Source: Allocoprobacillus halotolerans
GTDB lineage: Bacteria > Bacillota_I > Bacilli_A > Erysipelotrichales > Coprobacillaceae
Length of the DNA: 64,000 nt
Reading direction: 5' to 3'
NCBI RefSeq assembly: GCF_024399475.1
Contig: NZ_CP101620.1
Span: 62,001-126,000, forward strand
Made by a program: the position numbers and the translations under genes. The notes below the pieces were generated by a model. The model saw nothing but the letters and a program-made list of their open reading frames with translations, was not told the origin of the DNA and made no database searches. Shown here piece by piece: positions 3,386 to 10,076 of the stretch (within the stretch, counting starts at the first letter, position 1; every line of letters starts with the position of its first letter).

Positions 3386-3817
3386 TTACAATAAATCATC
3401 TGCACTAAACTTTAAAGTAACATCACAAGTGTTGCTTGGTTCAAAATTATGTGAAGTCACACAAGTAAAATATATACTTCCTTTTGAACATCCATGTTCA
3501 CTCACAAGCACAGCATAATTTAAAGGTATTCCAACTAAATTTGATTTATATGATTTGGAACTGTTAACTAATTCAGCATAATTACCTAACGCCGCATCTC
3601 CTTTTGTCTTTTTAAAAGTACCAATCTGACTTGTCTTTGTTTTTTTACTACCATAGTTCAAATCATAATGTTCTCCACCCCATGATGGTATATCTTTATG
3701 AGTAACCGTTTGATAAGAAGTTCCTGATACATAAGTATAAGCAAAAGTGGAAACCATTGTACCTCCTAAAACTAATAAACTCAATCCTAATGCAGTGATC
3801 TTTTTTTGTATTGACAT
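3386..3817 (-). CDS. Small secreted protein of unknown function
   Basis: A 143-residue protein starting at the ATG (3815-3817) that follows a strong GGAGG site; a longer upstream reading lacks such a site. A Sec-type signal is clear: MSIQKKITALG, a hydrophobic stretch, then a likely cut after STFA. The mature part is about 115 residues with three cysteines (HGCSKG, YFTCVT, SNTCDV) and no family I recognise. I compared it with lactococcin-972-type bacteriocins and found no support. It is divergent from a LytTR response regulator, so control by that system is possible. Confidence 0.7.
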   Translation of the reverse strand: MSIQKKITALGLSLLVLGGTMVSTFAYTYVSGTSYQTVTHKDIPSWGGEHYDLNYGSKKTKTSQIGTFKKTKGDAALGNYAELVNSSKSYKSNLVGIPLNYAVLVSEHGCSKGSIYFTCVTSHNFEPSNTCDVTLKFSADDLL

Positions 3818-3986
3818 AACTTTTACCTCCTTTCGACAAAAGTCTATCATAACCATCAAAAAAGTTATCCTATATGACGAATTTGTACATATTTTCGCTT
3901 TAAAAATGCACAAAGCAATAACTTTTTTGATATAAAATCCTTTGTCATATAATGTAGATAGTTGTCAGACAAAGGAGGTAGAAATT

Positions 3987-4700
3987 ATGCGAATTGCAAT
4001 TTGCGACAACGAATTATTTTATGTCAAAGATATTGTAGAAAGGATTAAGAAATATGAATTTCATGACACGAAGCCCACCATTATTGATGGTTACGTTCAA
4101 GGCACCCAACTATTAGATGCATTTAGAGTTGAACCTTATGATATTGTGTTTCTTGATATTGAACTTGGTGAAGATATGAATGGAATAGAGATAGCTAAGG
4201 TAATGAAAGATATTAAACCCAATTGTATCTTTATATTCATTACTGCTTATCACTGTTATTTAACTGAATCAATGTGGTTAGGTGCAGATTTATTTATTGA
4301 TAAACCTGTTAATTCTGAATTGTTCGATATGGAACTTCAACATGCCTACCATGTTTATAAACGTTTGAATCGTACAGTTAAGTTTGCCACAACTGATGGA
4401 AAAGTCTATGTAAAAACTGACGATATCATTTATCTAGAAACAAGCTATGGAAAATATAAGTTAAAAACAACAAAACGTCATTACTATGGTAATCTCAAAA
4501 GAATTATAAAATCAAGACAACAATTACTAGATTATCATTTCTTTCCATTAAATAGGAGTATCATCATCAATTTTAAACACGTTAAATCATTTTGTTTTGA
4601 CTATGTCACAATGTCTAATGATGATATTCTTCCATTAACGAAACGTATTCGTAAAGAATTCAAAGAAAAATATTTCGATTTTGTAGACAAGGAGATGTAA
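3987..4700 (+). CDS. LytTR-family response regulator (AgrA-like)
   Basis: DNA-binding response regulator of 237 residues. The receiver domain has the acidic pair in ICDNE, phosphoacceptor D57 (VFLDIE) and the conserved lysine in IDKPVN; the LytTR domain begins near residue 135. The ATG at 3987 follows AAAGGAGG; an earlier in-frame ATG at 3942 has no such site. It is followed two bases later by the membrane part of its probable partner kinase and faces away from a secreted protein gene, an agr-like arrangement without an AgrB or peptide gene. Confidence 0.88.
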   Translation: MRIAICDNELFYVKDIVERIKKYEFHDTKPTIIDGYVQGTQLLDAFRVEPYDIVFLDIELGEDMNGIEIAKVMKDIKPNCIFIFITAYHCYLTESMWLGADLFIDKPVNSELFDMELQHAYHVYKRLNRTVKFATTDGKVYVKTDDIIYLETSYGKYKLKTTKRHYYGNLKRIIKSRQQLLDYHFFPLNRSIIINFKHVKSFCFDYVTMSNDDILPLTKRIRKEFKEKYFDFVDKEM

Positions 4701-4702
4701 TT

Positions 4703-5979
4703 ATGATTATAAACTTATTATGTAAAGCATTTATAGCGATTTTAAATATTTTATTACTTGATTTTTATTTAAAGAATATATATCCAGATATTTATAGAGA
4801 AAAAACAAAGAAAATGAATTGTATAGTATATTTCTTTCTGTTAGTCGCATTAATTATTTCATCAAATATAAAAACCAATATAATTATTTACTTATTAACA
4901 TTAATAATTATAGTCTTTATATTTTGCCAGTGGAAAATTCCAGTAATAGAAGCATCGATAAAATTGATTTTATTTTTTATCACTAAACTAATTATATACT
5001 TTTTAACAATAATAATTTTATGCTGGATTTTTGACACAAGAATGTCTTTATATCATTTTGATTTTTCTTCATCTTATTTTATTTTGTCATATTGCATTAT
5101 AAACTTTATATTATACATAGTACTGTCTTTTATCTTTAAAAAAGTAAAAACATTTATAATATAAGATTTAAAATTTTATGTATTTTTATGATTACTTACT
5201 TTTCAATAAATGTTTTTTTAAACAACCCTATTTTATTTCGAACAGCTAGTATTGCCCGTACTTATATCTTTACAGTTATCATTAGTATCGTTGCATTAAT
5301 ATATTTTGATAGAATGCAAACCAAATATGAAACTGATAAACATGCTAAAGAGGCAATGATACAAAATATGACAAAAGAAGAAGAATTTATAAAACAATTA
5401 CAGAATCAACAGTTAGAGATTAGAAAGATTAATCATAATTTGAATAACATATTAATTATATTACAAGCACATTTGAAAAATGGTGAATATGATGAAGCAA
5501 TAGAATATATTGAACAGAATTTAAAAATACATGTTAAAGCTTATCAGGATTTAACGCATACTGGTATTCCAACTCTTGATAGTATCTTAAATAATCAGAT
5601 GTATCTTATGAAAGAAAAGAATATTGAATACCATGAGGATATTACAAAAATATTGCATTTAGGTAATGTTAAAACTGATGATTTGTCTCTAGCAATAAGT
5701 TTAGCATTAGATAATGCTAGAGAAGCATGTGAAAAAGTTGATGCTCAAAGACAGATTTCTTTAAGTTTACAAAGCAAGCAAACACATGTTGTTCTTTATA
5801 TTACTAACTCTATTCCTCAAGGAAGTCATCCACATTTCCATAAAACAACTAAAGCAGATAAAATTGCTCATGGACATGGAGTGAAAAGTATTAAAGAGAT
5901 TGCCAGAAAATATCATGGAGATGTAAAATATGATATAAAAGATAATCAGGTTATTTTAAGAATTATGTTACAAAAATAA
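4703..5979 (+). CDS. AgrC-like GHKL sensor kinase, split by a frameshift
   Basis: Membrane histidine kinase partner of the preceding regulator. Frame 2 (4703-5164) gives ~150 residues with about five hydrophobic segments. The rest, readable in frame 1, gives a last membrane helix, a coiled segment, the phosphorylation-site region (KINHNLNNI), an N box (SLALDNAREAC) and a G box (HGHGVKSIKEIA). Frames meet at an A6 run (5138-5143); a seventh A gives a continuous ~425-residue kinase, the usual AgrC size. The ATG at 5188 has no ribosome site, so a separate second gene is unlikely. Confidence 0.75.
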
Positions 5980-6074: not shown

Positions 6075-6971
6075 CTATTCAAGTATCTTATAGACATCTG
6101 TTTCACTATGTATATCTGTTATATGTAATGCAAGATTGTTTAACTCTTCTTCATTACTTAATTCAATTCTCAATGTCAATTCAGGTGTGAGTTTTCCTAA
6201 TACTTTTTTAAGTTGAGCCATTAGCATTTCCATTTTACCTTCCTGTTTACCTTCTATTCTTCCTTTTTGTATCCCTGAATCTTCAATGTCTTTCCAAAAT
6301 GACCACATTGCCACGGTTCCTTCTTCTCCTTTCACTTGTTCTAAAATATCAAATCTTTCCGTAAGTATCGCTATCACCCTTGCGGCTGTCTTTGAGACTT
6401 CCATCCCTTTGAAATCTTCTTTCTCTTTTCTCCATATCTGATTAACTGTTTTGACGATATTGCGATTATCCTCATTTTTGAGTAGGTGATAGTCCAAATC
6501 CTTGATATCTACAATCTTCATCTTCCAGTCATTTGGCATCCCCTTCAAGCTTTCAGGAATATCCATTCTTTCTACCAGTGACGTGACTGCTGTCCATCTT
6601 CCTTCGCCATGAAACAATACGAGGCTGACAACTGGCATGATCTTGTAGCTCTTGTACTCCTTATCCTGCATGTTGTAGGTCAATGCATCATAGAGAAGTG
6701 TTCTTGACACCATTGTAAAATCAACCTGATCCTGTGCTTCCAATGCCAAGATAGCCTGTGAATCCTTTCCTTTCCACAACATGATGGCATCACGTCTTCT
6801 TTCCCTGGAAATATAATTGCCTACAAAGATTTCACTTGTATCCATTCTTTGAAGTTCATCAGGCTTAATGACATCTTGACCGCCATAGAGAATAGCGTTC
6901 ATCATATCAGCAAAATGATCAGGATTTCTGAAGAAATCTCTGATGACATCATCAACTTTCAAATCTTTCAT
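6075..6971 (-). CDS. Rpn-family PD-(D/E)XK nuclease / putative transposase
   Basis: 298 residues matching the Rpn (recombination-promoting nuclease) / PF04754 type: N-terminal FFRNPDHFADMMNAILYGG, then a PD-(D/E)XK-like core around RRRDAIMLW...ILALEAQDQ, and a C-terminal helical tail with QKGRIEGKQEGKMEMLM. Family members cut DNA and raise recombination; many are near-silent genomic copies. Start ATG follows AAGGAGG. Codon use looks a little more GC-rich than in the LytTR neighbours, which fits recent spread. About 250 bases without a gene follow on the right (6972-7223); nothing recognisable was seen there. Confidence 0.75.
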   Translation of the reverse strand: MKDLKVDDVIRDFFRNPDHFADMMNAILYGGQDVIKPDELQRMDTSEIFVGNYISRERRRDAIMLWKGKDSQAILALEAQDQVDFTMVSRTLLYDALTYNMQDKEYKSYKIMPVVSLVLFHGEGRWTAVTSLVERMDIPESLKGMPNDWKMKIVDIKDLDYHLLKNEDNRNIVKTVNQIWRKEKEDFKGMEVSKTAARVIAILTERFDILEQVKGEEGTVAMWSFWKDIEDSGIQKGRIEGKQEGKMEMLMAQLKKVLGKLTPELTLRIELSNEEELNNLALHITDIHSETDVYKILE

Positions 6972-7223: not shown

Positions 7224-7940
7224 TTACTTTTTCTCCTCTAAGAACTTATAAAAAATCCTTTTAAATTCTCTATAACGTTTCTTGGATATAAGCAACATAC
7301 TCCCATCTGACATATAAAGCAATACATTATCAATTTTCACAATATGTTCCATATTCACTAGAAAACTTCTTTGTATTCTTACAAATGAATAATCTAATAA
7401 TGCTTTTCTAATAGCATTGGCAGGTTTTAATGAACCATAATAAACACCTCTAGTGGTATGTATTTTATAGCTCTTATAAGCTGTTTCTAAATAAACAACT
7501 TCTGATAAACGAAAAATAATACGTCCTTGTGATGTTGGAAAAGCAAATGATTTATTCCTATATTGATAATGCTTTAAAGCTCTTTTTAATTCATATATAA
7601 AGAGTTGCTCTTTTAATGGCTTTGTTAAGTATTGAAATGCATTCACGACATAAGATTGATGAATATAACTCATATGACTTGTCATAAAAATAATCATCGT
7701 AGACATATTCTTTTCATGTATCATATGTGCTAAGTGAACGCCATTTATATCTGATAGTTCTATGTCTAAATATACCAGATCATAAGGCTGATAGGTAAAT
7801 ACAGAAAGAAATTCTTTCCCTTCATGAAATGTATCCACTTCTATATTTACATTGCCATCATATGATTGTCTAAATCTCTCTATTTTATCACACACATCTT
7901 GAAGATATAATTCTTCATCATCTACAATTGCAATTTTCAA
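7224..7940 (-). CDS. LytTR-family response regulator (second of tandem pair)
   Basis: 238-residue regulator with a complete receiver domain (VDDEE, phosphoacceptor D59 in VYLDIE, lysine in YLTKPLK) and a LytTR DNA-binding domain from about residue 135. It begins with a TTG that overlaps the stop of the upstream regulator (TTGA), with a GGGGAGGAAG site, so the two are co-translated. No kinase gene is adjacent. An imperfect dyad at 7170-7200 lies past the stop but lacks a neat T-run. Confidence 0.87.
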   Translation of the reverse strand: MKIAIVDDEELYLQDVCDKIERFRQSYDGNVNIEVDTFHEGKEFLSVFTYQPYDLVYLDIELSDINGVHLAHMIHEKNMSTMIIFMTSHMSYIHQSYVVNAFQYLTKPLKEQLFIYELKRALKHYQYRNKSFAFPTSQGRIIFRLSEVVYLETAYKSYKIHTTRGVYYGSLKPANAIRKALLDYSFVRIQRSFLVNMEHIVKIDNVLLYMSDGSMLLISKKRYREFKRIFYKFLEEKK

Positions 7941-8692
7941 TTTTCTTCCTCCCCATTCTTTCTTTTTTCTTTTTCTTCTTGTTCCTTTAAAAACTTTTCA
8001 AACAATAAATGATTTTGAAATAAAGTTTTACGACTTGTTGGAAAAACTTCCCTTGATTTTAAGATAACATTACGATCAGTTAAAAAGTCAATACATTTCA
8101 TATTTACCAAAACACTTTGATTCACTTGCATAAACCACCTTGATTTTAATACTGGTCTTAACTTATAACGATTTTTCACATGTGCCATAAAATGCTGATC
8201 ATCAACTGTCACAATTTCCAAATCATTATAATATGTTTCAAAATATTTGATTTCATCAACATTAAAAATACGTTTACGTTTTAATTCTCTAACCGGTATA
8301 ACAAATTTCACATTCTGATGTAAATACCAATCCATTAAATAATCAAAAATACTTTGAAATTGATTCGTATTAATAGGTTTTAACAAATATTCTCTTGCAT
8401 TCACTGCAAAGGCTTCTTGAATATGATAATATTTGTCGCTAATGAAAACAATTTGACAAGCACGATTGGCTTTTCTTAATTGCATCGCTGCCTCTATTCC
8501 TCGATCATTTTCAATTCTCATTTCAATAAACGCAAATTCATAACAACGAAACCTTGTACTATCCAGCATTTCTTGAATTGATGAAAAAGTATAAACATTC
8601 AATTTCATCTCTGGTTCATGAAAACATTCATAAATTTTCTTTGAAATTAAGTTTAAATAATCTAACTGATCATCACATACAGCAATATTCAT
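7937..8692 (-). CDS. LytTR-family response regulator with Glu at the phosphorylation site
   Basis: 251-residue regulator, first of a tandem pair. The receiver domain keeps the acidic pair (VCDDQ), a serine in VFISDK and the lysine in YLLKPIN, but the expected Asp is Glu57 (FAFIEMR, aligned with D59 of its partner). Glu at this site often mimics the phosphorylated state. The LytTR domain follows, and the C-terminus is a charged tail (EEKEKRKNGEEEN). It may therefore be active without a kinase, or act as a stable partner for the second regulator. Confidence 0.85.
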   Translation of the reverse strand: MNIAVCDDQLDYLNLISKKIYECFHEPEMKLNVYTFSSIQEMLDSTRFRCYEFAFIEMRIENDRGIEAAMQLRKANRACQIVFISDKYYHIQEAFAVNAREYLLKPINTNQFQSIFDYLMDWYLHQNVKFVIPVRELKRKRIFNVDEIKYFETYYNDLEIVTVDDQHFMAHVKNRYKLRPVLKSRWFMQVNQSVLVNMKCIDFLTDRNVILKSREVFPTSRKTLFQNHLLFEKFLKEQEEKEKRKNGEEEN

Positions 8693-8801
8693 AATCCTCT
8701 CTCCCCTACCTTATTATGGATATATTTTCATTGTAGTCAATTTTTTAACATTTATCAGTCCACTTTTTACCCGTTTTTGGCATTTTTTATTCCATTTTTT
8801 G

Positions 8802-8814: not shown

Positions 8815-8902
8815 CTATGGTAACCATTGAACAATTGAAATTAGCCATAATTTCCCTAAAGCAAATCAACATAGTGTATAATAGCGATAAGGTGGTGAAA
8901 TC

Positions 8903-9142
8903 ATGAGTATTGGTCAAAGATTAAAAACATTAAGAAAAGAAGCTGGATTATCACAAAAACAAGTCGCTGAAGCATTAAAAATGTCTAAACCTATTGTCTC
9001 TCAATATGAATCTGATCAAAGAACACCTTCTGTTCCTAAACTTATTCGTTTTTCACGTTTTTATAAAGCTTCTTTAGATTATATTTGTGAAAATGTTGAA
9101 AAGAAAGACGATTTTTATGGCATCAAGGATTTAGATCAATAA
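8903..9142 (+). CDS. XRE-family transcriptional regulator
   Basis: 79-residue single-domain regulator with a Cro/C1-type helix-turn-helix: SIGQRLKTLRKEAGLSQKQVA then MSKPIVSQYESDQRTPS. ATG follows AAGGTGG. It is divergent from the tandem LytTR operon and ends at a good terminator, so it is monocistronic. The 13-bp motif at 8802 lies about 90 bases upstream. Its targets are unknown; the neighbouring LytTR operon is the first candidate. Confidence 0.85.
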   Translation: MSIGQRLKTLRKEAGLSQKQVAEALKMSKPIVSQYESDQRTPSVPKLIRFSRFYKASLDYICENVEKKDDFYGIKDLDQ

Positions 9143-9282: not shown

Positions 9283-9487
9283 GTCTTTAAAGAACACCTA
9301 TTTATTGATGTATGAAAATGAACTCAAAATATAAAAGAAAGGGATTTTTCTCATCAGCAACTCACATCTATAAATAGAAGATATAAATAAGGTTGTGACT
9401 TAGCCTAAATGAACCTGGCTTCTTACATAATTATTTATATATGATGCATCATAAAAGGCGAAAGATTTTTATCTTTCGTTCTTTTTT
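9283..9487 (+). ncRNA. Candidate structured small RNA, ~200 nt
   Basis: A gene-free stretch with its own transcription signals. TATAAT at 9271-9276 (weak -35) precedes a region whose ends pair over a long stem: 9297-9313 with 9444-9458. An inner stem is ATATAAA (9329-9335) with TTTATAT (9434-9440). A possible H-type pseudoknot joins AGGTT (9390-9394)/AACCT (9412-9416) with AGCC (9402-9405)/GGCT (9417-9420). A clean terminator ends it. The next gene is on the opposite strand, so it cannot be an ordinary leader. Size and long stem recall 6S RNA, but I see no decisive 6S signature and no known riboswitch consensus. Confidence 0.5.
9459..9487 (+). terminator. Rho-independent terminator of the candidate small RNA
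   Basis: CGAAAGAT (9459-9466), TTTT loop, ATCTTTCG (9471-9478), then TTCTTTTTT. The T-run exists only on the plus strand, where no protein gene lies upstream for 300 bases. Confidence 0.85.
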
Positions 9488-9956
9488 ATATTTTAATCTC
9501 TTCCATTTTTAAATGGTTAACCAAAAGATCAAATTCTGGCTTATAGTGACGACTAGAAATTAAAATATCATCATTATCTAAAGTGATTCTACGACGGCTG
9601 CCACGTTGAATCTTATATGTTTTGACATGCTTAATATTAACGAGTGTCCGCACATTAATTTGATAAAAGCCATAACTTTGTACACGCTGTTTAAGATGTT
9701 CCATTTTCATACAAGAAATACGATAAACATCTTTTTCCGTATAAGCATAAATTTTATGATCAACCATTTCAAAATAGTAGATTGCTAAAATAGGAATATA
9801 ATATTTATTATGATATTCATCAAACAATTCTACTTCACCTAAATTTTCAGTAAATTGTTTTAAAAGTAATTGTGCTAATTTTTTATTTTTGGGATGATAA
9901 ACAAGTTTTAATTCATGATGATTCATATGCTCATTTTCATCATAGACAACCTTCAT
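9486..9956 (-). CDS. Lone LytTR DNA-binding domain protein
   Basis: 156-residue regulator without a receiver domain. The LytTR fold occupies roughly residues 50-150 (IPILAIYYFEMVDHKIYAY; GFYQINVRTLVNIKHVKTY; LISSRHYKPEF). The ATG at 9956 follows GGGAGGGATG; the longer reading to 10022 has no such site. Stand-alone LytTR proteins are often controlled by a partner membrane protein or by level alone; no such partner is adjacent. A pair of direct repeats and the shared 13-bp motif lie 120-150 bases upstream. Confidence 0.82.
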   Translation of the reverse strand: MKVVYDENEHMNHHELKLVYHPKNKKLAQLLLKQFTENLGEVELFDEYHNKYYIPILAIYYFEMVDHKIYAYTEKDVYRISCMKMEHLKQRVQSYGFYQINVRTLVNIKHVKTYKIQRGSRRRITLDNDDILISSRHYKPEFDLLVNHLKMEEIKI

Positions 9957-10076
9957 GTTTTCATCCCTCCCCATATAGAATATAAAATGCATTTTATAGT
10001 TAAAATACAACAACAAATCCACGAATCATCACTTGTATACAAAATCAAATGCTCATTCGCCTAAATATTGTATATT

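Follow-up and report, generated by a model that had tools for sequence, protein, structure and literature searches.

Pseudo-receivers, also called aspartate-less receivers (ALR), are recognised receiver domains without the phosphorylated aspartate or other key active-site residues (PMC12632262, PMC4395418). They account for ~6% of bacterial receivers (PMC12632262), and the commonest replacement in aspartate-less receivers is glutamate (26%; PMC4395418). A 2025 review describes their on/off control as a mystery (PMC12632262). One of them is CmrT of C. difficile, found with CmrR and CmrS, which has Glu (E53) at the phosphorylation site and keeps the Thr and Lys of the pocket (PMC12548384, PMC12632262). 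Its operon also encodes a normal response regulator, CmrR, and a histidine kinase, and the E53A change alone did not disable CmrT (PMC12548384). ChxR of Chlamydia trachomatis also has a natural Glu at this site and is active without phosphorylation (PMC4395418, PMC3960148). Its output domain is of the OmpR/PhoB type, binding was not abolished when only the Glu was replaced, and the accounts of ChxR drawn on here describe no tandem pair.

For regulators with a LytTR output domain, Asp to Glu changes have been made in the laboratory. ComE D58E of S. pneumoniae bound its promoter 17-fold more tightly (Kd 21 vs 371 nM), with ~70-fold greater dimerisation (PMC6010298). CdtR D61E of C. difficile was only partly active (PMC6699598). 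Both share the output class and the type of change with the protein described below, but they are altered forms of phosphorylatable proteins, whereas the Glu found here is natural and fixed. A limited literature search found no description of an aspartate-less LytTR protein of this kind, and no response regulator work on Massilimicrobiota.

The window, which is the whole analysed stretch of 64,000 nucleotides from Allocoprobacillus halotolerans, encodes a 251 aa protein on the minus strand (7937..8692), here called RR-A. Its receiver (Pfam Response_reg, E 1.5e-10, 41.6 bits, cut-off 30.2) is followed by a LytTR DNA-binding domain (Pfam LytTR, E 6.9e-07, 29.9 bits, cut-off 22.6), as in LytTR-type response regulators. 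Codon 57 (8522..8524, minus strand) is GAA, and Glu57 shares an alignment column with Asp59 of the tandem partner, RR-B. The acid pair (D7, D8), S85, Y102 and K105 are retained. The preliminary description had reported Glu at residue 57 opposite Asp59 of the partner, with the DD pair, Ser and Lys kept, and the sequence and alignment agree with it on both points. RR-A and its seven close orthologues, all with Glu57, thus lack the Asp that accepts the phosphate at the end of strand beta 3 in a canonical phosphorylatable receiver. With its Response_reg match and Glu57, RR-A falls among the pseudo-receivers. Structure prediction was poor for RR-A (mean pLDDT 51).

Twenty of the 22 receiver matches in the host genome were read, and the site was Asp in 18 and Glu in two, namely RR-A and one degenerate receiver with an ambiguous E/D alignment. 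The latter, a second aspartate-less receiver of this genome (L125, C1:488615-488938), has no acid pair, E-D at the site and Glu in place of Lys.

Proteins of the RR-A kind are already known, with CmrT/CmrR as a close functional precedent. The solved receivers that the RR-A profile matched include that of CmrT (2QZJ, E 8.9e-05), and as in CmrRST, a Glu pseudo-receiver and a phosphorylatable regulator are adjacent on one strand. However, the CmrRST output is of the OmpR family and the domains here are LytTR, so RR-A and RR-B are analogous to CmrRST and not a member of it. The acid motif differs as well (DGD in CmrT, DD in RR-A). In addition, the CmrT kinase lies inside the same operon, and the parts of the CmrT report used here do not mention a linked XRE gene (PMC12548384).

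Among 43 family genomes, five of them of the genus, close RR-A orthologues (71-90% identity) were found in seven further genomes. Four of these are Massilimicrobiota and one is Longibaculum muris; the other two belong to a genus to which Candidatus Stoquefichus massiliensis is also assigned. Codon 57 was GAA in all eight close sequences, counting the host. The preliminary description had asked whether the Glu is fixed, and had named Asp in close relatives or a base error at the codon as the findings that would speak against it. Glu57 proved to be fixed in the close relatives, and a sequencing error was rejected because independent assemblies carry the same GAA. At the family level, one relative (G008) has Asp at the site, together with Lys in the acid pair (D-K instead of D-D).

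The search was extended with an RR-A profile to 315 genomes of the order (E <= 1e-25, at most eight candidates scored per genome, a setting that remote copies could escape). Matches came from 15 genomes in seven genera, all Coprobacillaceae, and one orthologue was read from each. In the trees these 15 rows formed one clade, with support of 98/91, or 98/87 for the LytTR part alone. The G028 row is the upstream gene of a tandem pair on contig C134, chosen over higher-scoring matches, and its placement in the clade rests on the trees. The G006 protein was begun at an internal Met. For outgroup regulators ten loci were tried (L020-L022, L024-L030), of which L024 and L030 were kept and the other eight excluded by the filter.

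A full active site (acid pair, Asp, Thr/Ser, Lys) was present in 0/15 RR-A proteins. Nine have Glu at the phosphorylation site, that is the eight close rows and G006, one has Asp with Lys in the acid pair (G008), and five are degenerate, with neither Glu nor an intact site. All five still retain the LytTR domain. Four of the degenerate receivers belong to g11, where the site residue is Ser (G020), Asp (G022), Ala (G021) or Gly (G023), with uncertain alignment of the site; their acid pair is D-Q or N-Q, and Ile or Met replaces the Lys. The fifth, G028, has Tyr at the site, again with uncertain alignment, E-N as acid pair and Gln for Lys. In G006, the Glu is kept next to an H-H acid pair and Leu for Lys. 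The Lys of G008 is at the second position of the acid pair, which we take to be the position of the CheY 13DK change. That change is phospho-mimetic (PMC7355467).

Two positions were conserved across most or all of the clade. Tyr102 was present in 15/15 RR-A proteins, and the residue after the Ser/Thr (T+1) was acidic (Asp or Glu) in 13/15, vs 1/12 for RR-B and 0/9 for RR-C, the regulator paired with the neighbouring kinase. In true receivers T+1 is usually small (Ala/Gly in 74%; PMC12632262). Three-state parsimony of the phosphorylation site over all 40 rows required seven changes, with Glu in both G006 and the eight close rows; the placement of G006 differs between the full tree and the LytTR-only tree. 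Separately, a LytTR regulator beside purine genes in G008 (L082:4830-5546, minus strand) has Gly at the phosphorylation site, and its G028 counterpart keeps Asp.

We consider it probable that RR-A is a pseudo-receiver LytTR regulator that works independently of phosphorylation, is held in an active-like state and is controlled through its abundance or by its partners. At the level of sequence, the loss of the phospho-acceptor, the conservation, the orthology and the gene order are established. It is well supported that RR-A would not be switched by Asp phosphorylation: its receiver is conserved and appears not to be phosphorylatable in the normal way, none of the 15 orthologues has a full active site, and RR-A persists without kinase or RR-B in some relatives. 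Glu57, together with Ser85, Lys105 and the acid pair, would most likely hold RR-A in or near an active, dimer-forming state, in which it may bind DNA. Against this stands the finding that the Glu is dispensable within the clade, with 5/15 having neither it nor an intact site. G006, with its Glu but with the HH acid pair and the Lys lost, is a poor fit to a simple Glu-Ser/Lys mimic. RR-A would probably be always on; the effect of the corresponding Glu was strong in ComE and partial in CdtR, and its removal did not disable CmrT. The output of RR-A would be set by the amount made, and perhaps also by its association with RR-B, the phosphorylatable product of the same operon.

RR-B is a 238 aa protein with a TTG start (7224..7940, minus strand), identified from its ORF, Pfam matches and junction sequence. 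Its receiver carries Asp59 and is followed by a LytTR domain. The last 4 bases of RR-A (7937-7940) are also the first 4 of RR-B, which is read from the same strand, and GGGGAGG lies upstream of RR-B. Its structure prediction had a mean pLDDT of 86.6. The phosphorylation-site Asp was found in 11/12 RR-B rows and the Lys in 11/12, G006 being the exception for both. The RR-B set comprised 12 rows, as the G008 contig ends after RR-A and no copy is adjacent in G021 and G023. Elsewhere in these two genomes, a search at E <= 1e-20 gave no match in G023 and two weak LytTR matches in G021. RR-A and RR-B are only 25-26% identical. PlnC and PlnD are of the LytTR class and both are phosphorylatable. This pair from Lactobacillus plantarum likewise consists of two related regulators, acting in one quorum-sensing pathway, but they are 59% identical to each other (PMC2714321).

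The two proteins could form heterodimers of an active-like RR-A with a phosphorylatable RR-B, in which phosphorylation of RR-B tunes the complex and RR-A provides most of the DNA specificity. We regard such a heteromeric switch as rather unlikely. It agrees with the adjacent, co-directional and overlapping genes of the host, and with the phosphorylation site being kept by RR-B and the LytTR domain by RR-A. BldM and WhiI of Streptomyces are encoded by separately controlled genes, and their output family is different from LytTR. They are atypical regulators thought to be phosphorylation-independent, one of them with a degenerate pocket, and their heterodimers are a precedent for such pairing; WhiI has lost the Lys and one acid residue, and does not carry the Glu (PMC4125116). 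CmrR and CmrT interacted in a pull-down, but neither two-hybrid system detected their heterodimers (PMC12548384). Furthermore, RR-A occurs without RR-B alongside in G021 and G023, which shows that RR-B is not obligatory. The RR-B LytTR domain is under selection (dN/dS 0.03-0.20), so RR-B probably binds DNA itself.

A further alternative, which we consider improbable, is that the receiver is a structural leftover, with the LytTR domain working on its own and Glu57 marking one harmless stage of decay. The receivers of g11 and G028 are indeed degenerate, and the two that were scanned, G022 and G028, had no Pfam Response_reg match. The LytTR domain was more similar than the receiver in 66/66 pairs of the 12 genomes for RR-A, and the receiver was the more similar domain in 34/66 pairs for RR-B (pairs are non-independent in both cases). 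However, the Glu57-clade receiver was at least as constrained as those of RR-B and RR-C. In rough estimates with dS near saturation, dN/dS was 0.02-0.11 for the RR-A receiver and 0-0.045 for its LytTR domain (10 Massilimicrobiota pairs), 0.065-0.32 for the RR-B receiver, with the LytTR range given above (10 Massilimicrobiota pairs), and 0.115-0.22 and 0.06-0.10 for the RR-C receiver and LytTR domain (6 pairs). Ser85, Tyr102, Lys105 and both acid residues are also kept in all eight close rows. For the Glu57 clade, the low receiver dN/dS led us to reject decay as a sufficient explanation. In this clade the receiver is maintained under strong purifying selection and not decaying, and the DNA-binding domain is the most conserved part of RR-A, nearly frozen.

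The preliminary description had stated that no kinase is adjacent, which is incorrect: the neighbouring genes include a convergent AgrC-like kinase and the regulator that accompanies it, the kinase being split in the host. The frame of this GHKL histidine kinase (4703..5979, plus strand) was recognised from HATPase_c_5, the single ORF of relatives and alignment, and it consists of two pieces, 4703-5164 and 5188-5979, that lie in different frames. Its counterpart in close relatives is a single ORF of 424-435 aa; the split in the host genome is compatible with both a real loss and an assembly error. The AgrC model scored 37 bits against a relative's kinase, far below its cut-off of 500. The regulator paired with the kinase, RR-C (3942..4700, plus strand), has a receiver and a LytTR domain according to its ORF, Pfam and alignment. 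It keeps the Asp, as did 9/9 rows; the G004 contig ends, and no RR-C was found beside the G008 and g11 copies. An AgrC-like GHKL kinase thus adjoins a LytTR regulator, as in Agr-type systems. Beside RR-C (3386-3913, minus strand) lies the gene of a small protein that, on visual inspection, appears to carry a signal peptide; the gene is conserved at this place in Massilimicrobiota, Longibaculum, Stoquefichus and G028. The protein had no match in Pfam or NCBIfam, and the kinase and RR-C could possibly act on it as a target.

Starting from the XRE gene, close relatives have the divergent RR-A next, followed by RR-B and, in convergent orientation, the kinase and RR-C. RR-A and RR-B are neighbours also in G001-G004, G027, G032 and G033. 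The intact kinase directly abuts RR-B in relatives, and the broken frame is ~1.2 kb from RR-B in the host. Between them lies a Transposase_31/YhgA-like ORF with DUF4351 (6075..6971, minus strand; Pfam), which among the genomes compared is at this place in the host only, being absent there in G001, G002, G003, G027, G032 and G033. The kinase is fragmentary in Longibaculum (G027), and none is found at the locus beside the g11 copies of RR-A (G020-G023). A kinase search at E <= 1e-10 had no match in G008, G020 and G022, and only weak ones in G021 (6.6e-15) and G023 (7.7e-20). G020 and G022 retain RR-A and RR-B without the kinase; G021 and G023 retain RR-A and the XRE gene with neither RR-B nor the kinase adjacent. 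That RR-A is a decoy, binding the AgrC-like or another kinase without accepting phosphate and so restraining RR-B or RR-C signalling, is very improbable: competitor models are discussed for pseudo-receivers (PMC12632262), and kinase and RR-C are directly convergent in relatives, but RR-A is retained in genomes whose locus has no kinase, a fragmentary one or a split one, and conservation within RR-A is highest in the DNA-binding domain.

RR-A and the divergent XRE regulator share an intergenic promoter region, through which the amount of RR-A could be set. The XRE-family protein (8903..9142, plus strand) has 79 aa and matches Pfam HTH_3 (E 1.4e-15). Its gene was found in 14/43 family genomes, all with RR-A, and adjoins RR-A in 13; the exception is G028, which has the gene on another contig. 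G006 has RR-A without it. A likely sigma-A type promoter of RR-A/RR-B (CTGATA, 17 bases, TACAAT; 8730..8758, minus strand) had an equivalent match in 12/13 intergenic regions (0.012 matches per shuffled region), with a pattern derived from the sequences that it scores. Upstream of the XRE gene, intergenic conservation revealed a block (8851..8883, plus strand) made up of TGTATAATA, an extended -10 (8875-8883), and TTTCCCTAAAGCAA (8851-8864). TATTATACA, the XRE -10 read on the reverse strand, was present in 13/13 intergenic regions, by a pattern likewise derived from these sequences, and the second element was matched by a loose pattern in 10/13. The block is possibly an operator. Gene order and the conserved intergenic region suggest that the XRE regulator may control RR-A. 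A regulon search with the conserved block across the whole genome gave three matches with at most one mismatch, vs three in the backwards control, and so yielded no regulon.

More tentatively, and as a possibility rather than the expected case, RR-A and the XRE regulator may together make up a small regulatory core that works without a kinase in this gut-bacterial family. Alternative natural changes would have locked the LytTR regulator "on": Asp to Glu in most lineages, and in one other a change of the acid pair like that of CheY 13DK. RR-B and the convergent AgrC-like kinase would be accessory inputs that some lineages have lost, giving a series from a nearly complete receiver to one without receiver chemistry. 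The RR-A clade is an unusually informative evolutionary series. At one gene position, it holds receivers whose pocket is intact apart from the Glu, one that kept Asp but has a disrupted acid pair, and fully decayed ones, and it spans presence and absence of the partner regulator and of the kinase. Comparing orthologues thus allows the role of the Glu to be told apart from those of the partner and the kinase. Another LytTR protein, of 178 aa and without a receiver, is encoded nearby in the window (9486-10022, minus strand); it is found near RR-A in Massilimicrobiota, with 87% identity, and weakly in G028.
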